Source: Enterovibrio coralii (GTDB lineage: Bacteria; Pseudomonadota; Gammaproteobacteria; Enterobacterales; Vibrionaceae). From it: 64,000 bases of DNA. The stretch covers positions 1 to 64,000 of the forward strand of contig NZ_LNTY01000030.1 in assembly GCF_001559595.1 (NCBI RefSeq). Reading direction: 5' to 3'. Positions 6,329 to 36,255 of this stretch are shown here, piece after piece; position 1 is the stretch's first letter, and every line of letters starts with the position of its first letter. Under the pieces are notes generated by a model, which saw nothing but the letters and a program-made list of their open reading frames with translations, was not told the origin of the DNA and searched no databases. The position numbers and the translations under genes are program-made.

Positions 6329-7881
6329 TCATCTCTCTTTTTTGTGTTTTGGCGGAGGCCCTTTTGGCATTTCGCTCTCGCTCAGGTATCCATCCTGATT
6401 AGCATCAAACTTTTCAAAGTCGCGTTGAAGTGGTCCTCTCACTTCGGCATAGGAGAGTTTCCCATCCTTGTTGCTGTCTAAATCAACCATAGGATTTGGA
6501 CGTTCTTGCTCTGGCTCTCTGCGTTCTTTTTCTGATGCACGCTGGAATGAAAATTGGTCTCTGCGCAACTGAGGCTGTTGCGCTTGTGTGCCTTGTGCAT
6601 CACTCTCAAACGCTTGCTTGGTGCGGGCAATCAAGGCTGGGGAGGTATCGAAAGTGACATTACCTCCAGCGACGCAGCGGGCGAAGTTTTGAATTCTAAC
6701 CGCATCACCTTGAGGGCCATGGCCTTCTTTGTAGCGAGAGGCGCTGCCCGTTTTTGGATCGCTCCGTTGTGAACCTGCGCCATGCACATCCATCCAATTA
6801 CCCTTCAAATTGCCTAAAGCACGGCCAAAAGAGAGATACACTGCATTCGAGGCACCTTTCAAATTCAGGTGTGTGGTGCTCGACCAATAGTTTGCATAAT
6901 CTTCCTGGCCCGCTTCGTTAGTGATGACCGTTGCTTGAAAGCGGCTGTCGATAGCTGCCGAATCTGTGGTGGCAGGTGAACGCGTATAGTCGACGATGGA
7001 TTGCAACTCTTTGGCGTTGGGCAATCGCCAGTCATTTCTCCCTGCCAATTCAAGACGCTCGCAATAGGCGAGGGCAGAAGGAAAGTCCATGGCTTTCTGG
7101 CTGTCGTTTTGCTGCCAAACCAAGCTGGTTGCCTTATCCGTAACCACGCCACGAGTTGGGACTGCGTAGTTATTCACACCGTAATTTGGATTGCCGCGAA
7201 CCACCAAGACATAGAATTTCTTCTCGCCCATTTTCGGGTTTGAAATGCCATAGCCCTTGATTCGGCCATCAATAAAATTGACGCCAAAAACGGTTTCATC
7301 TCTTCGCATCGTTGTAGAAACATAGCGAGTGGAAGACACGAACTGGCTGTCGATTAAACGCTCGCCGCGTTGGACATCGCCACTGTTCATTTCAAAGGTA
7401 AGGTTATCGATAAACGGGAGTAGGTTGACCTTGCCAGATTGGCGTAACCCACTTGGGTCTTGGCCATCAAAGAGTATCAATGAATACAGTTCTTTGATGG
7501 TGGGAAGTCGCCAGTCGTTGTAGCCACCCAAACGGAGTAGCTCAGCGTAGGTGCGGGCATTTTTCTCGCTCAGTTTGTCATAACTGTTGATGATGCCGTC
7601 ACGGTGCAAATCGGTAGAGGTGCCCACATTAACCCCGTGACATTGTCTGTCACTGTACCATCTCCATTATTGGTGTAGCTCGGCGGATTACCTTGGTATT
7701 GGGCGTCCTGACCAAAGGTTTTTTCGCCAATATCGGGACACGTGGTGGCGCGGTAAAGACCATAGCACTCGGTTTGGTGCGTATCGACAATCGGGTAATC
7801 CAATGCTTGCTCGGCTTTTGCATTGCTAACCGACAACCCCAGCACAGTGGCTAGCGTGATAGATGAAAAAAAGCGCGCCAT
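6329..7881 (-). pseudogene. secreted DUF1566 (Lcl-type) protein with C-terminal EF-hands, one frameshift
   Basis: A signal peptide (MARFFSSITLATVLGLSVSNAKA) leads into DUF1566 domains marked by NNGDGTVTDNVTGLMW, GGYNDWRLPTIKELYSLI and later NDWRLPNAKELQSIVDYTRS. The C-terminus has two EF-hand loops, DLDSNKDGKLSYAE and DANQDGYLSESE, then a basic tail. So the product is probably an exported calcium-binding protein of about 517 residues. The frame slips once at the CCC at 7623-7625 (GGG in the coding sense): the N-terminal frame ends just after GLMW, and the next frame resumes with GTSTDLHRDGI. Function of this architecture is unknown. It is a distant relative of the DUF1566 part of the cytochrome fusion at 31983-33638. 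Confidence 0.85.
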
Positions 7882-28853: not shown

Positions 28854-29762
28854 TTATAAGTACTGGACGCCGCGATGTTCGGTGAGAAAGGCTTTATACG
28901 CATCAATAAATGCCTTCACGCGTTGCGTCATATGATCGCGCGAGCGAACAATAATATTCATGTCTACGCGCTTAAAGCGATATTCCGAAAGCACTTGAAC
29001 CAATTTGTGCTCGTTCACAAGCTCTGTTACCTGAAGTTCAGGAAGTAAGGCAATGCCGAGTCCATTTGCGGCGAGCAACCTAGCGATATCCATAGAATCC
29101 GAAGTCACTCGCCCAGATATATCGACAGACTTTTCGGTGCCATCTATGTCTATATAAGGCCAATTCTTTTCTGCGTTCGGACAATTTATATTGGCAATAC
29201 ATAAATGATTAGAAAGTTGAGTTGGGGTTTGCGGAATGCCAAATGTGTTTAAATAATCGGGTGATGCATAACAACAGAAATTACATTCAAATATTTTAAT
29301 GGCAACTAATGATTGGTCTTCGGGCATGATAGGGGAAATCATTAAATCACAATCAGGCATTGATAATAATTGCTTTGGCGTTAGTGTGACCAAATCCAAT
29401 TGAATATTTGGGTAACGTTTTAAAAAGTCAGTAATAAAACTTTCGCTCAGCCATCTTGCCATAGGGTGCAACAAGCCAAGTCTCAGTTTGCCCTTCACAT
29501 CCTGCTCATTGTTCCCCAGAGACTCTAAGCCTCTGTCCCAGGCCTGCGTGACTGCGAGGCTTGTCTTAAATATTTTCTTTCCTTGTGGCGTGAGTGATAA
29601 CTCTCGGTTGCCGCGATGTAAAAGCTTTAGATTGAGTTGTTCTTCAAGCAATTTAATTTTACGACTTAAGGTGGGCTGAGTAACACCGAGTTGGCGTGCT
29701 GCTGAAACAAAGCTGCCTTTTTCAGCAACCGTAATAAACATGCGTAAAGAATCTAAATCCAT
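28854..29762 (-). CDS. LysR-type regulator divergent from the cytochrome operon
   Basis: The N-terminal winged helix-turn-helix is typical: LRMFITVAEKGSFVSAARQLGVTQPTLSRKIKLLEEQL. The 200-residue C-terminal co-inducer domain has the usual alternating pattern, with an FCCYASPDYL segment. At 302 residues its length is normal. It is divergent from the porin gene at 29927 with a 164-base gap between the two starts; LysR regulators usually control such a neighbour, so it is the best candidate to regulate the eight-gene electron-transfer operon. The inducer is unknown. Confidence 0.9.
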   Translation of the reverse strand: MDLDSLRMFITVAEKGSFVSAARQLGVTQPTLSRKIKLLEEQLNLKLLHRGNRELSLTPQGKKIFKTSLAVTQAWDRGLESLGNNEQDVKGKLRLGLLHPMARWLSESFITDFLKRYPNIQLDLVTLTPKQLLSMPDCDLMISPIMPEDQSLVAIKIFECNFCCYASPDYLNTFGIPQTPTQLSNHLCIANINCPNAEKNWPYIDIDGTEKSVDISGRVTSDSMDIARLLAANGLGIALLPELQVTELVNEHKLVQVLSEYRFKRVDMNIIVRSRDHMTQRVKAFIDAYKAFLTEHRGVQYL

Positions 29763-29926
29763 AACCTACTTTTTACCACTAATAACAAGCAAGATACATT
29801 TGGGTTGATCTCCATCTCGTTATTCATTTTTTGAAATGGGGTCATTCAATTTTTGCGTCTCATAAAAATAAACCCCATCGAATACCATAAGTCAATTCCA
29901 ATCTAAAATTAATATAAGAGTCAATA

Positions 29927-30883
29927 ATGAAGACTAAAGCAGTGGCCTCCTTAGTGGCAGGTTTATTTATTGCTCCGGTATATGCGCAAGTGGAATTGCC
30001 TAAGCCAGAGTTTTACGGTGCCATTCAAGGGCAATTGACGTGGGAAGACGGCAAAGATCATCAAACCCAGCTTCAAGAAGCATTAGTGGGTCTACACGGT
30101 TTTATTCCCGCTGAACATTTCCGCATGCGCTACAAGCTGGCCGCGGAGTATTCAGAGACCAATCCAAATCCCGAAGAGCAGGATGAAATCATTGTCAGCG
30201 AAGCAAACCTGCTGTTTGTTTCAAAGCAATTTGGTGGCTTGTATGTCGGGCAAGGCACGACGGGCTCTTGGCAAGATTTGTACAGCAAAGTCGATATCTT
30301 CGATTCAACCAACATGAAGCGTGCTGGCGGCAATGAAAGCTTGTTCCGTCAAGGCTATTACGGCACTAACATCCTTGCTTACGCGTCACCAAGTTTTCAT
30401 AACTTCTCTTTCAAAGTCGCGGCCATGTCTCCTAACGAAACCAACGGCGCAGATATCGATGTGCTGGGTTTGCGTGCGTTGTATAACGCCAAAAACTTTA
30501 GCTTGGTATTGAACCGCGCTGAGATGGATGAAAAGCAAGTCGCAACGGGTTATACCCGCTGGGCATTAGCCTCAAGCTACAAAATGGGTAATGCGTATTT
30601 GGCGGGTCTTGTTGAGTACAACGAGAAAGATCCGCTCGGCGATAGCTGGGTTTACGCCGTTTCAGGCAAATATACCGCAGACAAAATGTCTTATCGCCTT
30701 GGTGCCCAAACCAAGCAATGGGAAGACGATGCGAAGAACGTGGACAAGGAAGACGAAACACTTCTTCTGGCCAACGTTTCCTACCAATTCCACCCGAATG
30801 CATCGCTTTACGCAGAAGTGGCGGAGTACCTCGAAGATTCTCAAAACGACAAGATCAATGTCGGTCTTGTTGCCCACTTCTAA
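29927..30883 (+). CDS. Gram-negative porin, first gene of the operon
   Basis: A signal peptide (MKTKAVASLVAGLFIAPVYAQ) is followed by VELPKPEFYGAIQGQLTWE and a series of beta strands with aromatic ends, finishing with the C-terminal Phe (INVGLVAHF), which is the outer-membrane insertion signal. At 318 residues it is a 16-stranded general porin type. It opens an operon of redox and copper genes, so it may admit their substrate or a metal; this is inference. The next gene begins 9 bases after its stop. Confidence 0.85.
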   Translation: MKTKAVASLVAGLFIAPVYAQVELPKPEFYGAIQGQLTWEDGKDHQTQLQEALVGLHGFIPAEHFRMRYKLAAEYSETNPNPEEQDEIIVSEANLLFVSKQFGGLYVGQGTTGSWQDLYSKVDIFDSTNMKRAGGNESLFRQGYYGTNILAYASPSFHNFSFKVAAMSPNETNGADIDVLGLRALYNAKNFSLVLNRAEMDEKQVATGYTRWALASSYKMGNAYLAGLVEYNEKDPLGDSWVYAVSGKYTADKMSYRLGAQTKQWEDDAKNVDKEDETLLLANVSYQFHPNASLYAEVAEYLEDSQNDKINVGLVAHF

Positions 30884-30892
30884 GGAGCTGTT

Positions 30893-31366
30893 ATGCGCAA
30901 GATAGTGTTGCTGGCAGCCTCAGCGTTATCGTTTGGGGCTCATGCGGGATTAACGGTGTCGGACTGCGTGATCAGAGAGCCTGCGCCGGGTAAGGATATG
31001 ACGGCGTTGTACCTGAACATTCACTTTGAAAACACCGACGAAATAAAGGCACTTCGTATGCCTGCTAACGAAGATGTGGTTGGTGCGGAAGTGCGCGATT
31101 TGGCCAGTATCGTTGAGCTGCACACCACGCAGATGGCTGACGGCGTGATGAAGATGCGTCGTGTACCCAAAATCAAAATTTTGGAAGGCGATAACGCACT
31201 AAAGCCTGGTGGCAATCACATCATGCTGAAGGGATTAAAGGCGCAGCCTAAAGCAGGTGATATTTACCCTGTGACGGTGTGGATGACTTACACCGAAGAT
31301 CTGCAATGTGACGCTGTGGTGAAGAGCAGTGCAGACATTGCAACCGCGCAGGAGACGACCAAGTGA
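30893..31366 (+). CDS. PCuAC-type copper chaperone
   Basis: A signal peptide (MRKIVLLAASALSFGAHA) precedes the PCuAC domain. The copper-binding pattern is present: ELHTTQMADGVMKM gives His and Met ligands, and NHIMLKGL gives the second His-x-Met pair. These periplasmic proteins bind Cu(I) and deliver it to cytochrome oxidase or other copper sites, usually together with SCO proteins. Here SCO (34782) and thioredoxin-like (35333) genes share the operon. The Met-rich motif is complete. Confidence 0.85.
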   Translation: MRKIVLLAASALSFGAHAGLTVSDCVIREPAPGKDMTALYLNIHFENTDEIKALRMPANEDVVGAEVRDLASIVELHTTQMADGVMKMRRVPKIKILEGDNALKPGGNHIMLKGLKAQPKAGDIYPVTVWMTYTEDLQCDAVVKSSADIATAQETTK

Positions 31367-31986
31367 AAAAGCTATTCGCTGAAGCGCGCAATGTAAAGCG
31401 CGCCGTGGTCGCTTTGCTGGTTGCAGTGGGCATGGGTTTAGGCTTGTTGTCTGCGTTGCCTGCAACAGAAGTGATGCATGCATTGAGCACCAATGAATTC
31501 TGTTCATCGTGTCACACCATGGAGCCAATGGCAGAAACCTTTGCGCAGTCGATTCATGGCGGTAATAACTCGCAAGGCTTTGTCGCGGAATGTGTGGATT
31601 GTCACTTGCCAAAGTCTAACGTGGTTGAGGAGCTTTACGTTAAAGGTACGTCGGGCATGCGCCACCTTTGGGGGGAGTATGTGCTGGGGATGGAAAACCT
31701 AGACTATCAAGCTCTGCATGAGAAGCGCACTGACTTTGTGTTCGACTCCGGCTGTGAAAGTTGCCACAAACAAATCGAACCACGTGCTGTGGCAGCGACG
31801 GAAGCATCTTCCATTGCTGACCAAACGCACCAACTGGCATTCAATCGCAAAGAGACTGACGCCAACTTCCAATGTTCTTCCTGTCACTACGACATTGCTC
31901 ACCCGGGTCTAAAACGCAACATGCGCCTGAGAGAAGAAAAGCTTCTTGAGACGCTGGCTGCTCTGCAAGAAGGAACAAACTCATGA
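31363..31986 (+). CDS. NapC/NirT-type tetraheme cytochrome c
   Basis: After an N-terminal membrane anchor (AVVALLVAVGMGLGLLSAL), four CxxCH sites follow: FCSSCH, ECVDCH, GCESCH and QCSSCH. This is the layout of the NapC/NirT/CymA family, which takes electrons from quinol in the membrane and passes them to periplasmic partners. At 207 residues it has the usual length. It starts at GTG 31363, overlapping the upstream stop by 4 bases, so the genes are translationally coupled. The downstream partners are presumably the cytochromes encoded in the same operon. Confidence 0.9.
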   Translation: MKKLFAEARNVKRAVVALLVAVGMGLGLLSALPATEVMHALSTNEFCSSCHTMEPMAETFAQSIHGGNNSQGFVAECVDCHLPKSNVVEELYVKGTSGMRHLWGEYVLGMENLDYQALHEKRTDFVFDSGCESCHKQIEPRAVAATEASSIADQTHQLAFNRKETDANFQCSSCHYDIAHPGLKRNMRLREEKLLETLAALQEGTNS

Positions 31987-33638
31987 GCCTGCGCATGAAA
32001 ACGCTGACTGCTGCCGTTTTGTCGCTGGTGACGTCGTCACCTTTGATGGCCGCGGAAGACATTAATAACGGCTACGAAGACTACACGATTAACCGCACCT
32101 TCGAGACCATGTCGCCAAAAGACAAAGCCATCGCAAACCGCATTATTTATGGCTGTTACATGGGGTGTCACCGTCCAGCGCGAGAAGAAGTCACCGAGTC
32201 GCTGAGTCCTAAACTTGAAGGTTTTGACCCGCAGTATTTCTATGACCAATGGGTCGATATGGATAACGAGCGCAAAGCGGGTATTTCTTCGCAGATGAAG
32301 GAAATCGTTTATCAGTACTCTCCGCATGACATGGCGTCGGTAGCGGTGGTCTTGGGCGAGCGAAAAATGTCCTACAACCCAGAGCCTGAGGTATTGGCAA
32401 GCGATGCGTTCAAGCGTGGTAAGGAAAAGTACGACGCATCGTGCAAGATGTGTCATGGCGAGCAAGGTGCCAGCACCAATCCGGCTTACCCGCCCCTGAA
32501 AGGTCAGATGCCCGCATACATTTTCGAACAAATGACGGCGTATCGTGACGGCAAACGTACCAACCGCCAAGGGCCGATCATGGCACCGTTTGCGCGTATG
32601 CTGAGCGAAGAGGATTACAAAGACATCATCGCGTATGTGTCTGGCAAAGAGTACCGTGCGGTTGAGCGTCGCGAATACATCACGGGTATTGGTATGCCGC
32701 CAGTAAAAGACTTTGTTCTGCCGGATACGGGTCAAATCCAGAACTTTACCGACATCAAAGGGGAAGACAGCGATTACCCGCAAAGCCCAATGAGCTACAC
32801 CATTAGCGAATCTGGCAAAACCGTGTTCGATAACAACACTAAGTTGATGTGGGAACGTGAAAGCTCGCGTATTTGGATGACCGCGGTAGAAGGTCAGGAA
32901 TACTGTGACAGCTTGGAATTGGACGGTTACACCGACTGGCGTTACCCGTTGATGAAGGAGCTGCAGAGTATTGCGGACATGGGCGAATTCCGTCCTGCCA
33001 TCAACACCGATGTGTTTGCCAACATGCCGCGTGCGAACTCAGGTATCTGGACCTTCCCAGTCTCTGATCACCCTGACCACGTTTGGCACGTAGGCTTCCC
33101 GGATGCGCACATCATGGGTCAGCACACGGCATCCACCAAGCTGGTGCGTTGTGTACGTGCTGACAATGGTGCGGCTTACCACAACATGGATTATGTCGAT
33201 AACAAAGATGGAACGGTGACGGAGCGCATTACAGACCGTATGTGGCAACAAAACATCGATTACCAACGCCGTAATTGGGAAGACTCGATTCAGTACTGTG
33301 AAAACCTGAACTACGCAGGGTACGACGATTGGCGTTTGCCAAACATCAAAGAAGCAGTGTCGATTGTTAACTACAACAAAACCTCACCGTCGATTGATGA
33401 AGAGTTTTTCCCGAACACTCCGGTGAAGTATTTCTTCTGGACCAACTCGTCTGATGTAGCGGGACCGACCATCCACATGCGTCCTCTGGGTCTTCGCAAG
33501 AAAGATCAGACCCCTGAAATGCTGGATCTTCGCCATACCGGAGATAACGAAGGCTGGGCTCAGGGTTACCTGATTGGTTCAGGTCTTGGCATGACCAAAG
33601 ACAACCTGTTCTACGCCCGTTGTATCCGTAACCCATAA
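31983..33638 (+). CDS. multidomain cytochrome c with two DUF1566 domains
   Basis: A signal peptide (MSLRMKTLTAAVLSLVTSSPLMA) leads into an N-terminal heme-like site CYMGCH, which has three residues between the cysteines (CX3CH) instead of two. A cytochrome c domain follows with SCKMCHGEQG and a likely distal Met in PIMAPFA. From about residue 265 onward there are two DUF1566 domains (DGYTDWRYPLMKELQSI and AGYDDWRLPNIKEAVSI, with paired Cys). The 551-residue protein is therefore a cytochrome linked to a C-lectin-like binding part. It starts at ATG 31983 with an ATGA overlap. It is likely the central periplasmic component; the substrate is unknown. Confidence 0.85.
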   Translation: MSLRMKTLTAAVLSLVTSSPLMAAEDINNGYEDYTINRTFETMSPKDKAIANRIIYGCYMGCHRPAREEVTESLSPKLEGFDPQYFYDQWVDMDNERKAGISSQMKEIVYQYSPHDMASVAVVLGERKMSYNPEPEVLASDAFKRGKEKYDASCKMCHGEQGASTNPAYPPLKGQMPAYIFEQMTAYRDGKRTNRQGPIMAPFARMLSEEDYKDIIAYVSGKEYRAVERREYITGIGMPPVKDFVLPDTGQIQNFTDIKGEDSDYPQSPMSYTISESGKTVFDNNTKLMWERESSRIWMTAVEGQEYCDSLELDGYTDWRYPLMKELQSIADMGEFRPAINTDVFANMPRANSGIWTFPVSDHPDHVWHVGFPDAHIMGQHTASTKLVRCVRADNGAAYHNMDYVDNKDGTVTERITDRMWQQNIDYQRRNWEDSIQYCENLNYAGYDDWRLPNIKEAVSIVNYNKTSPSIDEEFFPNTPVKYFFWTNSSDVAGPTIHMRPLGLRKKDQTPEMLDLRHTGDNEGWAQGYLIGSGLGMTKDNLFYARCIRNP

Positions 33639-33649
33639 CAATAATGAGT

Positions 33650-33678
33650 GCCCTCAGGCTAACAATCTGAGGGCTTTT
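33650..33678 (+). terminator. hairpin inside the operon, carrying the next gene's ribosome binding site
   Basis: GCCCTCAG and CTGAGGGC form an 8-bp stem with a 9-base loop, followed by TTTT: a terminator-like hairpin in the middle of the operon. The 3' arm contains GAGGG (33669-33673), which is 9 bases before ATG 33683 and is the likely ribosome binding site of the beta-propeller gene. The hairpin could thus both attenuate transcription and mask translation. Confidence 0.7.
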
Positions 33679-33682
33679 CCCT

Positions 33683-34771
33683 ATGAAGAAGATCCTGTTA
33701 CCTCTTACCTTCGCGTTAAGCGCGCAGGTTTCGGCGGAAGAACAACGTTACGTGGATGGTGCGCGCTGGGCGTTTGTGTCGGATGCTGCTTCAACGAAAT
33801 TGGCGGTGGTGGATACCTTTACGCAAAAGCATGTCGATACGCTGAGCCTGAGCGCGATCCCTACGGAACTTGAAGTCTCCGACCTACAAGATTTATTGGT
33901 GTACATCGATGGAAAAACGCCGTCTTTGTACATGTATGACTTGGCTAACGAAAAGCATACCGAGATGCCGCTGTCTTTCGTACCAAATCAAATCGTGTTC
34001 CATCCCGATGGCGCGCAACTGGCGGTTGGCGGCAACGATGCGCTGGTTTTTGTTATGCCGCTCGACAAGAAAATCATGGGTACGTTTGAAGACGTCGACA
34101 GCCCATTTAGCCTGAACTTCGATAACGGCGGCTACAACCTCTACGTTACCGAACAAGACTCTGGAAATACCTTTGTCTATCGCTTTCACGATGGCCATCG
34201 CTCTCAAATGCAGTTAGGTGAAGGACGTGTGTCTGAAATCACCCTGTCGCCGGACGCGCGTCTCGGCATGGTGGCGCAATACAAAGACAACTCTGTGTAT
34301 GTCCGAGATCTGTTCATGGATGCGGAGTTTGGCAAATTCGAGATGCCTGCAACGCCACATCGTCCTTATGTCAGCTCTGACAGTGAGCACATCATTCTTG
34401 CCGCCGACGACGGAAACGGGGTGGTGATTAATGCATGGAGTGGCGAAAAAGTGCGTGATATCAAAGTGGGCGCAAACCCTGGCGCGCTGCGCTCTGGCTG
34501 GCTAGAAACGATTGGGATCGTGTCGTCAGATAGTGCGCTGTCCGTCTTCGATATTGCCCAATCTACACCCGAGAAAACCGTGGCACTGAACGCTCCACTG
34601 GAAGACGTTGTAGTGGTGTCAGATTCGAAAACGCTATTTGCGACCCAAGAGAAATCGTCCTCTTTGTTTGTGTATGACATTCGCACAGCAGCACAGCTTT
34701 CTTCTATCGAAACCGGACTCACCCAGCCACGCCACATGGTCATGGGTATCACCAATACTATCTGTCACTAG
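33683..34771 (+). CDS. secreted beta-propeller (YncE/YVTN-like) protein
   Basis: A signal peptide (MKKILLPLTFALSAQVSA) is followed by about seven repeats of the YVTN/YncE type, recognised by recurrent D-x-x-x-x-x-V-xD segments such as STKLAVVDTFTQKHVDTL and SALSVFDIAQSTPEKTV. At 362 residues the fold is probably a 7-bladed propeller in the periplasm. Similar proteins accompany heme or copper systems (for example NirF-like proteins near cytochrome cd1), but no heme-axial residue pattern is clear here. It starts just after the operon hairpin at 33650-33678. Confidence 0.75.
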   Translation: MKKILLPLTFALSAQVSAEEQRYVDGARWAFVSDAASTKLAVVDTFTQKHVDTLSLSAIPTELEVSDLQDLLVYIDGKTPSLYMYDLANEKHTEMPLSFVPNQIVFHPDGAQLAVGGNDALVFVMPLDKKIMGTFEDVDSPFSLNFDNGGYNLYVTEQDSGNTFVYRFHDGHRSQMQLGEGRVSEITLSPDARLGMVAQYKDNSVYVRDLFMDAEFGKFEMPATPHRPYVSSDSEHIILAADDGNGVVINAWSGEKVRDIKVGANPGALRSGWLETIGIVSSDSALSVFDIAQSTPEKTVALNAPLEDVVVVSDSKTLFATQEKSSSLFVYDIRTAAQLSSIETGLTQPRHMVMGITNTICH

Positions 34772-34781
34772 GAGTGAAACA

Positions 34782-35336
34782 ATGAGAAAGCTGCTGTCCT
34801 CTTCGGCTCTTCTGTGTGCGCTTGTGTCAGGTCATGCACTGGCGAATTTGGACTTCGACCTACAACACGCCACCCTCGGAAACGTGACGGAGAAAAGCTG
34901 GCCCGGGCAATATTTGCTGATAGGCATCGGCTATACCTCTTGTCCAGATATTTGCCCGACGACAGTGATCGACATGGCGGCCACTGTCAGTAAGTTGGGC
35001 GAGAAATCCAGCAAGGTGACACCGCTCTTTATTTCCGTGGATCCGAACCGAGATACCGCAGAGTACATGGATACCTATGTGAAATTCTTTAGCGCGAACA
35101 TGGTGGGCTTGGTTGGTAATGAGGAACAAACCAAACAGGCCATGAAATCCCTGCGCGGTACGTATGGTTATTCCGTAGAAGGTAAACCGGTTTACCCACC
35201 ACTACCTGAACAATACGAAGTGTTCCACTCTGCCTATGTGTATCTCTACAGCCCAGAGGGCATGCTGGTGGACGTTTACGGCTATGGCATGGGTAGTGAC
35301 AAAATAGCGGCTGACATCTCAAGGAATATTCCATGA
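34782..35336 (+). CDS. SCO1/SenC family copper-binding protein
   Basis: A signal peptide (MRKLLSSSALLCALVSGHALA) precedes the thioredoxin fold with the copper-binding motif TSCPDICP (CxxxC) and a conserved His further on (FHSAYVYLYSP). SCO proteins deliver copper to the CuA site of oxidases or reduce its ligands, and they work with PCuAC. The start at ATG 34782 is supported by GGAG 7 bases upstream, and the region before it belongs to the upstream gene. No oxidase genes are present in this operon, so its client here is unknown. Confidence 0.9.
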   Translation: MRKLLSSSALLCALVSGHALANLDFDLQHATLGNVTEKSWPGQYLLIGIGYTSCPDICPTTVIDMAATVSKLGEKSSKVTPLFISVDPNRDTAEYMDTYVKFFSANMVGLVGNEEQTKQAMKSLRGTYGYSVEGKPVYPPLPEQYEVFHSAYVYLYSPEGMLVDVYGYGMGSDKIAADISRNIP

Positions 35337-35842
35337 GGCGAACGTTTCTCGTGCGTCAAGGTTACGCTTTATCAGCGGTACTTTGGCTCTTGTCCGGCTC
35401 GGCTTATGCGTTCGATTCACAGTGTAAACTCCCAACCGAATTTCATGCGGTAAAACCGTATGCATTGCCTGCTAATTTACCGGTCGAGAGCGATAGAAAT
35501 GTCAGCCTAGTGAACTTCTGGGCGGTGTGGTGTGGCCCGTGTTTAAAAGAGCTGCCGATGCTGAGTGAGTTAGCCGCTTCAAGCCGAACATTTGATGTAA
35601 AAAACCTGCATGTTGGCGATAACGATGAAGCCATCAACGGCATGTTCAGCCGCCTTTCTATTACCAACCTTTCCAATGCGCACATTGATGATTTTGATGC
35701 GGTCAGGGAGTTGGGGTTTGTTGGCCTTCCAGCAACCTTAGTGACGGTGAATGGAGCAGTGGAATTTCACGCAACAGGGTACTTAAAAACGCCTGCAGGT
35801 GAACTTCACCAATGGCTGCAATGCTTGGGAGTGTCAGCATGA
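35333..35842 (+). CDS. TlpA-like thioredoxin-fold protein
   Basis: After an N-terminal hydrophobic signal segment (YALSAVLWLLSGSAYA), the protein shows the thioredoxin motif AVWCGPCLKELP and a fold that ends in GLPATLVTVNG with the cis-Pro. TlpA/ResA-type proteins keep heme-attachment or copper-site cysteines reduced in the periplasm. It overlaps the SCO stop by an ATGA and is translationally coupled. This fits a role in maturing the cytochromes or copper sites of this operon. Confidence 0.85.
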   Translation: MRRTFLVRQGYALSAVLWLLSGSAYAFDSQCKLPTEFHAVKPYALPANLPVESDRNVSLVNFWAVWCGPCLKELPMLSELAASSRTFDVKNLHVGDNDEAINGMFSRLSITNLSNAHIDDFDAVRELGFVGLPATLVTVNGAVEFHATGYLKTPAGELHQWLQCLGVSA

Positions 35843-36189
35843 AATGGGTGAAAAAGGCGTTAAATATTTTGGCGGCAGTGAGCCTGCTATCGATGGCTTC
35901 GCCAGTGTTTGCGGATGCCTTGTCTGGCGAGCAACTTTACAAGAATCCGGGACGCGGTGGTTGTATCAATTGCCACGGTGAAGGGGGCAATGTCCCTGTC
36001 ATTCCTTTGTATCCAAAAATTGGTGGGCAGACCGAAATGTACCTGTTCAACCAGATGATGGATTACAAAAACGGTAAGCGCAAAAACGGTCTCTACATGA
36101 CCATGGAAACGGCGATGAAACCTTTCTCCGAAGAGGAAGTGCGTGCGGTGGCTAAGTATCTAGCAGAAGGGGAATGGCCTATAAAGTAA
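35839..36189 (+). CDS. monoheme class I cytochrome c
   Basis: A signal peptide (MKWVKKALNILAAVSLLSMASPVFA) is followed by the heme site GCINCHGEGG and a likely distal Met in MKPFSEEE. At 116 residues (about 90 mature) it is a small soluble periplasmic electron carrier. The start at ATG 35839 overlaps the upstream stop (ATGA). It ends the operon and is followed by a strong terminator. Confidence 0.85.
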   Translation: MKWVKKALNILAAVSLLSMASPVFADALSGEQLYKNPGRGGCINCHGEGGNVPVIPLYPKIGGQTEMYLFNQMMDYKNGKRKNGLYMTMETAMKPFSEEEVRAVAKYLAEGEWPIK

Positions 36190-36219
36190 GTGTATATAGA
36201 TTGACGTTATTTCGAGAGA

Positions 36220-36255
36220 AAAGCCGGGTGTGATGCCCCGGCTTTTCGCTTTTTT
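36220..36255 (+). terminator. intrinsic terminator ending the cytochrome operon
   Basis: AGCCGGG and CCCGGCT form a 7-bp stem, extended by A-T pairs, with an 8-base loop, and a T-rich tail follows. It closes the operon that starts at 29927. Confidence 0.85.

Follow-up and report, generated by a model that had tools for sequence, protein, structure and literature searches.

An eight-gene operon of Vibrionaceae that pairs a cytochrome-Lcl_C fusion protein with a putative copper-insertion cassette

Positions 1 to 64,000 of the forward strand of contig NZ_LNTY01000030.1 of Enterovibrio coralii (assembly GCF_001559595.1; this whole stretch is called the window below) hold an operon of eight same-strand genes, 29927-36189, with a divergent LysR gene, as read from open reading frames (ORFs) and Pfam matches. 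The operon encodes a porin, the copper chaperone PCuAC, a NapC/NirT-family tetraheme protein (NirT), a 551-residue c4-type cytochrome fused to two Lcl_C (DUF1566) domains, a secreted β-propeller, SCO and TlpA-like proteins and a monoheme cytochrome (Table 1). We tentatively favour the reading, to which we give a little less than an even chance, that these genes specify a quinol-fed periplasmic reductase in which the 551-residue protein would be a heme-copper terminal protein with a copper-insertion cassette of its own. Gene content and order, co-conservation, sequence motifs, a His/Met cluster and a copper cassette that can occur separately are all observed; quinol oxidation, copper at the cluster, a direction of electron flow and catalysis are inferred. 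NirT, as its family suggests, would oxidize membrane quinol and hand the electrons, either straight or by way of the monoheme cytochrome, to the c4-type hemes of the 551-residue protein. These hemes would feed copper held by the His/Met cluster of the first Lcl_C domain, at which a small oxidant would be reduced. PCuAC, the propeller, SCO and TlpA would constitute the copper-insertion cassette, with this His/Met site as client, and the porin, where present, may admit substrate or copper.

The gene set is a real unit, beyond chance, since it recurs in 15 other genomes. The 551-residue cytochrome is present in 16 of the 296 Vibrionaceae genomes sampled (4/13 genera), its closest relative being that of Enterovibrio sp. 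ZSDZ35 (95% identity), and by tblastn every one of the 16 carriers also has PCuAC, NirT, propeller, SCO, TlpA and monoheme cytochrome genes as well as the divergent LysR gene (the LysR match is partial in G005). The original prediction, made from the window sequence, of a tightly packed eight-gene set with a divergent LysR gene is borne out by four 4-base overlaps (GTGA at 31363; ATGA at 31983, 35333 and 35839), the remaining intergenic gaps being 9, 44 and 10 bases, and the core genes do occur together in 16/16 carriers. As a unit it stands for seven core genes and LysR, the porin being optional (found in 14/16 carriers by tblastn, in two pieces in L050, and not found in 2/16). Gene order is identical in 15/16 carriers; in Vibrio sp. 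99-70-13A1 the operon is split into a LysR/porin-PCuAC-NirT-cytochrome block and a propeller-SCO-TlpA-monoheme block a few kilobases apart. The latter block (L141 6429-11406, G513; the split operon itself is L046) lies near divergent CusB- and CusA-type efflux genes. In G005 (L053 6086-13467) the full set is found with the PCuAC/NirT, 551-residue, propeller and TlpA/monoheme frames broken or fused, owing either to poor assembly (87% complete) or to decay.

It had also been noted that the cluster contains no known catalytic oxidase, N2O reductase or nitrite reductase gene; Pfam indeed recognizes none in the eight genes, and no known oxidase or reductase recurs beside the module. The flanks of the carrier loci hold 158 ORFs of 100 residues or more, picked by keeping the longest of overlapping frames (which may hide genes); four of their families reach two lineages and none reaches three, and hence no missing enzyme appears to travel with the module. 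By eye, no respiratory enzyme was recognized in the flanks of 14/16 carriers. Vibrio renipiscarius, in whose operon no porin was found by tblastn, has a cytochrome b561-family gene directly downstream on the opposite strand (L022 13699-14394, -; Ni_hydr_CYTB, 83.3 bits). In G027 (L052 8-5075, 13121-16189) the module lies between reductive dehalogenase genes (183.8 and 164.5 bits against the TIGR02486 cut-off of 160.35), and the flanks also hold FMN-binding/ferredoxin, flavodoxin-reductase-like and TPR genes; such a flank was seen, by eye, in none of the other 15 carriers. Reductive dehalogenases are cobalamin/Fe-S enzymes and would leave the copper chaperones and c-type hemes unexplained, but the G027 neighbourhood offers a lead.

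The case for the 551-residue protein as terminal component comes from its domain structure and from residues specific to its family. It begins with two class I cytochrome domains, and a profile finds cytochrome c4 chains first among solved structures (E 1.7e-23, two stretches). The first heme motif is CX3CH (C58-YMG-CH), not CXXCH, and is kept in 15/15 comparable rows, while the second is C154-KM-CH; sections of PMC6295460 describe CX3CH for some CymA and ImcH proteins. Of its 11 His, those conserved without exception are both heme ligands, H366, H369, H376, H381 and H400; M378 is likewise invariant, the cluster being located in the first Lcl_C domain and present in 15/15 sequences. At columns 366, 369, 376 and 381 the family has His in 15/15 rows each, compared with 1, 0, 0 and 0 of 16 control Lcl_C domains, none of which has Met at column 378 (a few are gapped there). 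The controls are domains from other proteins of related genomes, placed in a gapped alignment of divergent domains; of 30 loci in the search, 5 were operon cytochromes, 16 served as controls and 9 weaker or fragmentary ones were left out, as was the operon cytochrome's own second Lcl_C domain. The earlier suggestion that the DUF1566 cytochrome may be the terminal part is supported by this invariant cluster absent from the 16 controls, its function being a prediction. As far as the open PubMed Central (PMC) literature searched goes, a redox metal site on an Lcl_C fold would be new. The window holds a second tandem Lcl_C protein (6329-7627, -), with C-terminal EF-hand motifs and no heme motif by eye, one domain of which (L129) is among the controls.

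Conservation counts vary in depth. L053 was dropped from those of the 551-residue protein and the propeller (genes in pieces), and L046 from that of the propeller (gene cut by the locus edge). L053 was kept for PCuAC, NirT, SCO, TlpA and the monoheme cytochrome with its frames as found, some of them fused, so that the invariants given for these proteins are lower bounds.

A rather different role is conceivable for the Lcl_C domains. The 551-residue protein might carry electrons to an external or outer-membrane acceptor, its Lcl_C part serving in glycan or surface binding or anchoring and its His cluster being zinc-binding or structural. Legionella Lcl binds glycosaminoglycans via its DUF1566-containing C-terminal region, according to the available text of PMC11162425, and five other Lcl_C loci lack a heme fusion (ORFs read by eye). 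This scenario leaves the copper genes and the family-specific His/Met cluster unexplained, Pfam recognizes no outer-membrane cytochrome conduit among the eight genes, and we consider it improbable.

NirT has four CxxCH motifs and a hydrophobic N-terminal stretch judged by eye to be a membrane helix. It falls below the NCBIfam cut-offs for the named subfamilies (NrfH 76.7/134.2, TorC 61.3/478.2, napC_nirT 50.6/310.6 and NapC 37.7/349 bits). Electrons could in principle run the other way, the Lcl_C/copper site of a periplasmic dehydrogenase oxidizing a substrate and electrons leaving via the c4 hemes and the monoheme cytochrome to an oxidase, or via NirT to quinone. Cytochromes c4, the best solved relatives of the profile, commonly feed cbb3 oxidase, which would suit such a direction. 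Against it, NirT is kept in 16/16 carriers and NapC/NirT proteins are mainly quinol dehydrogenases feeding reductases (in sections of PMC6295460), making a dehydrogenase quite unlikely in our view.

The copper genes retain the residues expected of them. H77, M86, M88, H109 and M111 of PCuAC are invariant in 16 rows, as are C54, C58 and H149 of SCO (C54xxxC58...H149). The family assignments made earlier proved right by Pfam, over curated cut-offs, with a loose match for the propeller, for which Lactonase is just above the cut-off (23.1 vs 21.7 bits). No named family comes close to the propeller: its matches to PQQ-associated, hydrazine synthase beta and AztD models were loose, far below cut-offs, nos_propeller was not matched at E<=0.1 (Pfam), and H92, H169 and H362 are its only invariant His (14 rows). 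Its relatives outside Vibrionaceae, at 16 loci in two other gammaproteobacterial families (15 + 1), are more informative. In 15/16 the propeller gene adjoins, on the same strand, a gene for PCuAC, SCO or TlpA (tblastn), with the order SCO-TlpA-PCuAC-propeller in one genome and NorB-type gene-SCO-propeller at two loci; beside the propeller of the remaining locus, L103 (7.4 kb contig), no PCuAC, SCO or TlpA was found. None of NirT, the 551-residue cytochrome and the monoheme gene was found by tblastn at any of the 18 loci searched. L108 and L109, among the loci searched, had weak or no propeller match and are outside the 16; outside the count, too, are propeller places in G193 and G126 (L063, L064; weak, no chaperone recognized by eye) and in G691:C200, G695:C12, G864, G900 and G873. 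The presence of propeller relatives beside chaperones without redox genes marks off the copper cassette and leaves the 551-residue protein as its candidate client.

The C-terminus of the propeller varies with its neighbours. It ends in Cys-His at 6/6 loci with PCuAC, as in the Vibrionaceae propellers, and in Cys-Tyr or Cys-Phe at 9/9 loci with SCO or TlpA alone; the L103 propeller ends in Cys-His despite no chaperone being seen. The relatives in G208 and G414 have the ends MGASNTLCH and MGETNTLCH. The loci compared (L061, L062, L094-L107) come from 9 genomes, related or few, and the pairing is a correlation only. The propeller is likely a copper-handling partner, with the C-terminal Cys-His as candidate ligand judging from these sequences. 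It is better regarded as a probable copper-loading part than as a member of the redox chain, its relatives adjoining copper chaperones without redox genes. We also considered the propeller as a copper enzyme resembling N2O reductase, thiocyanate dehydrogenase or hydrazine synthase beta and rejected the idea, as its relatives sit with chaperones rather than with the redox partners present in the operon and its invariant His are few. At L095 (5819-9984) and L097 (6221-10363) a NorB-type nitric oxide reductase gene precedes SCO and a propeller of the same family, the type having been tested in L097 (COX1 plus a NorB cytochrome c-like domain). NorB-type nitric oxide reductase is generally described as copper-free, which makes a copper chaperone beside it odd.

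The main rival takes the module as one for copper acquisition or maturation: NirT and the DUF1566 cytochrome would convert Cu(II) into Cu(I) or maintain SCO/TlpA in the reduced state, the chaperones would supply ordinary oxidases and the cluster would be a copper-handling site. Half of the genes (4/8) encode copper chaperones or partners, CusB/CusA-type efflux genes occur near the propeller-SCO-TlpA-cytochrome half in Vibrio sp. 99-70-13A1, and the propeller-SCO pair adjoins a gene of the heme-copper superfamily, of NorB type, at two loci, all of which fit copper supply for general oxidases. However, cbb3-type oxidases are general in Vibrionaceae and the module is found in only 16/296 of their genomes. 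A tetraheme quinol oxidase and a fused diheme cytochrome would moreover be elaborate for copper reduction, and the cassette exists elsewhere without them. On balance we hold this explanation to be unlikely, if still one to be reckoned with.

A related proposal is that the cassette matures a known copper respiratory enzyme, NosZ or CuNIR, encoded elsewhere in the genome. PCuAC and SCO do serve such enzymes in other systems, and the available text of PMC13006917 has AccA, a PCuAC protein, loading AniA. Nevertheless, the NosZ propeller model is over cut-off in 2/16 carriers and 2/26 non-carriers, and CuNIR (TIGR02376) in 0/42 genomes (16 of them carriers), with one strong split match in non-carrier G029. 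The cassette hence does not track NosZ or CuNIR; these counts largely refute the proposal, which we regard as highly improbable.

The operon itself looks like two cassettes: one genome has them at separate places, and in most of the rest a hairpin stands at their border. A strong GC-rich hairpin follows immediately upon the stop codon of the 551-residue gene in 12/15 genomes, its sequence differing between lineages, and the three genomes without it are three Vibrio of one clade. When one threshold is applied throughout (energy no higher than -12, stem of 8 or more), hairpins follow the 551-residue gene in 11/15 genomes and the other genes in 1/13 (porin), 0/15 (PCuAC), 0/15 (NirT), 0/14 (propeller), 1/15 (SCO), 1/15 (TlpA) and 5/15 (monoheme cytochrome), an imperfect control in that most of the other junctions are coding. 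Three of the twelve hairpins have weak z-scores (-0.9 to -1.3), and several lack a good T run. Standing before the downstream copper genes, the hairpin would agree with enzyme and assembly factors being made in different amounts, and partial termination or mRNA protection, giving more enzyme than assembly factors, fits this arrangement; control of translation of the propeller gene is an alternative. In L046 the first 55 bases after the stop codon of the 551-residue gene contain no hairpin and a short tandem repeat of AACCGATAG-like units.

In its most specific form the proposal is that an Lcl_C fold has turned into a redox enzyme, with copper at His366, His369, His376, Met378 and His381, wired via two c-type hemes to the quinol pool and reducing an undescribed acceptor, the copper being inserted by a cassette that includes a new family of propeller metallochaperones ending in Cys-His (with PCuAC) or Cys-Tyr/Phe (with SCO or TlpA alone). 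This fuller version, predicted from comparative sequence data, is possible and rather doubtful. Several points tell against a reductase with its own copper cassette, in this or in the more general form. With 221/551 positions of the 551-residue protein invariant, invariant His are in themselves a weak argument, which thus rests on the contrast with the controls, and this contrast is drawn in turn from 15 related rows, aligned with gaps to divergent domains. The His/Met residues could instead be zinc ligands, or have a structural or redox-tuning part. The known Lcl_C structure, that of Legionella Lcl, has a C-type-lectin-like fold that binds glycosaminoglycans, and the available text of PMC11162425 gives it no enzyme role; its authors speculate on divalent cations, at another residue. 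PCuAC is encoded upstream of the hairpin, so that the split into two cassettes is not clean, and the SCO tree fails to recover three of the five carrier groups described below. Finally, in G027, where the module lies between reductive dehalogenase genes, its role could be tied to another reductase.

Phylogenies suggest that the genes have stayed together. The tree of the 551-residue protein mixes Vibrio and Photobacterium, Photobacterium alginatilyticum grouping with V. rotiferianus (support 100/100), and needs at least three label changes for Vibrio (genus labels are partly inferred). Other gene trees recover most of the same five carrier groups, the exceptions being A in PCuAC, SCO and the monoheme cytochrome, D in propeller, SCO, TlpA and the monoheme cytochrome, and E in SCO. 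Since the gene trees mostly agree and Vibrio and Photobacterium are mixed, the module would seem to move or persist largely as a unit. Horizontal transfer of the whole block would explain this most simply; duplication with loss, or a degree of exchange between parts, may instead have been at work.

Relatives of the 551-residue cytochrome were also sought more widely, in samples and with strict limits, from which absence outside Vibrionaceae does not follow. In viral contigs four pattern stretches gave no confirmed relative, and plasmids gave a single full-length relative (Photobacterium sp. DA100, replicon of 2.1 Mb) besides one match to DUF1566 alone. The class sample yielded 3/369 genomes at E<=1e-25 (the window's own and two DUF1566-only) and, for the CX3CH domain, 2/369 at E<=1e-6 (its own and a small cytochrome). 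In the order sample there were 3/147 at E<=1e-30 (its own, one Vibrio and one DUF1566-only), and a contig pattern scan confirmed 6 of 96 pattern stretches, all of them in Vibrionaceae. Among the papers listed from the open PMC literature, read mostly at title and abstract level, none was recognized as dealing with the operon, with the cytochrome-Lcl_C fusion or with this family of propellers.

Table 1. Coordinates in the window of the operon genes, their motifs and adjoining elements
Feature	Position	Strand	Basis
LysR-type regulator	28854..29762	-	LysR_substrate 109.2 bits, HTH_1 76.5 (Pfam, over curated cut-off)
Porin_4 outer-membrane porin, signal peptide-like N-terminus	29927..30883	+	Pfam Porin_4 78 bits, over cut-off
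PCuAC periplasmic copper chaperone	30893..31366	+	Pfam PCuAC 70.4 bits, cut-off 29.4
PCuAC copper motif, residues 77-111	31121..31225	+	H..M.M..H.M-type sequence motif
NapC/NirT-family tetraheme protein, presumed quinol dehydrogenase, GTG start	31363..31986	+	Cytochrom_NNT 100.7 bits, cut-off 24.1
c4-type diheme cytochrome fused to two Lcl_C (DUF1566) domains, 551 residues	31983..33638	+	Lcl_C 159.8 bits (two stretches), Cytochrom_C 52.9
CX3CH heme motif C58-H63, first cytochrome domain	32154..32171	+	C58, C62, H63 invariant, 15 rows
CXXCH heme motif C154-H158, second cytochrome domain	32442..32456	+	C154, C157, H158 invariant, 15 rows
His/Met cluster H366, H369, H376, M378, H381 of first Lcl_C domain; candidate copper site	33078..33125	+	15/15 in family
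H400 of 551-residue cytochrome, also invariant	33180-33182	+	Family alignment
GC-rich hairpin and short T run between 551-residue and propeller genes	33650..33674	+	Hairpin in 12/15 genomes
Secreted β-propeller, copper-chaperone-linked family	33683..34771	+	Sequence relatives and their neighbours
Propeller C-terminus MGITNTICH	34742..34768	+	M354, C361, H362 invariant, 14 rows
SCO1/SenC protein, C54, C58, H149	34782..35336	+	SCO1-SenC 114.6 bits, over cut-off
TlpA/DsbE-like thioredoxin with WCxxC	35333..35842	+	Thioredoxin 27.8 bits, over cut-off; C67, C70 invariant, 16 rows
Monoheme class I cytochrome c	35839..36189	+	Cytochrom_C 32.6 bits, over cut-off; one CxxCH
Intrinsic-terminator-like hairpin 3' of last gene	36218..36247	+	11 pairs, T-rich tail

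Seven of the operon products have secretion-signal-like cleavable N-termini, as judged by eye, and the G+C content of the operon is 0.504 vs 0.478 for the window. A terminator scan gave 9 sites in total, near the 8.3 of shuffles, and a sigma-70 promoter scan gave 3 sites vs 8.4 in shuffles and is thus uninformative. One LysR-type T-N11-A dyad is found at 29823 (window sequence only).

Were the proposed reductase to exist, it would combine copper and heme in a respiratory protein of a new type, built on a fold so far known for sugar binding, and would point to an undescribed electron acceptor used by marine Vibrionaceae. Independently of this, the propeller family adds a testable component to copper delivery in bacteria, a field that is still establishing which proteins work with SCO and PCuAC, and the module, being compact, self-contained and found across genera, lends itself to deletion or transfer as a single piece in harmless laboratory hosts.

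Parallels with known systems are numerous, and each stops short of identity. As in NapC, NrfH, CymA and TorC systems, a tetraheme NirT protein (PF03264 over cut-off) is encoded beside a periplasmic redox partner, but this partner is a c4-Lcl_C fusion instead of NapA, NrfA or TorA. Thiocyanate dehydrogenase and N2O reductase are copper propeller enzymes and share with the operon the combination of a propeller, copper genes and a cytochrome, whereas the operon propeller has few invariant His, leaves nos_propeller unmatched and has chaperone-neighboured relatives that suggest a chaperone role. Like cytochromes c4 and PdsA-type proteins, the 551-residue protein has two class I heme domains, from which it departs in its CX3CH first motif and two fused Lcl_C domains (PdsA model 30.2 bits, cut-off 330). 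Its two Lcl_C domains over cut-off relate it to Lcl_C proteins such as Legionella Lcl, while the heme fusion and a His/Met cluster not found in the 16 controls set it apart from them. The same three chaperone families, with PCuAC, SCO and TlpA motifs intact, take part in the assembly of CuA or CuB sites (excerpts of PMC9145763, in whose main text the word propeller is absent), but no oxidase recurs near the carrier loci, and a propeller and heme proteins are added. Finally, the zinc metallochaperone AztD is likewise a secreted propeller with metal-handling partners (excerpts of PMC6689063); the operon propeller, by contrast, scores 14.1 bits against its model (NCBIfam NF038015, cut-off 400), and its operon partners are copper chaperones.

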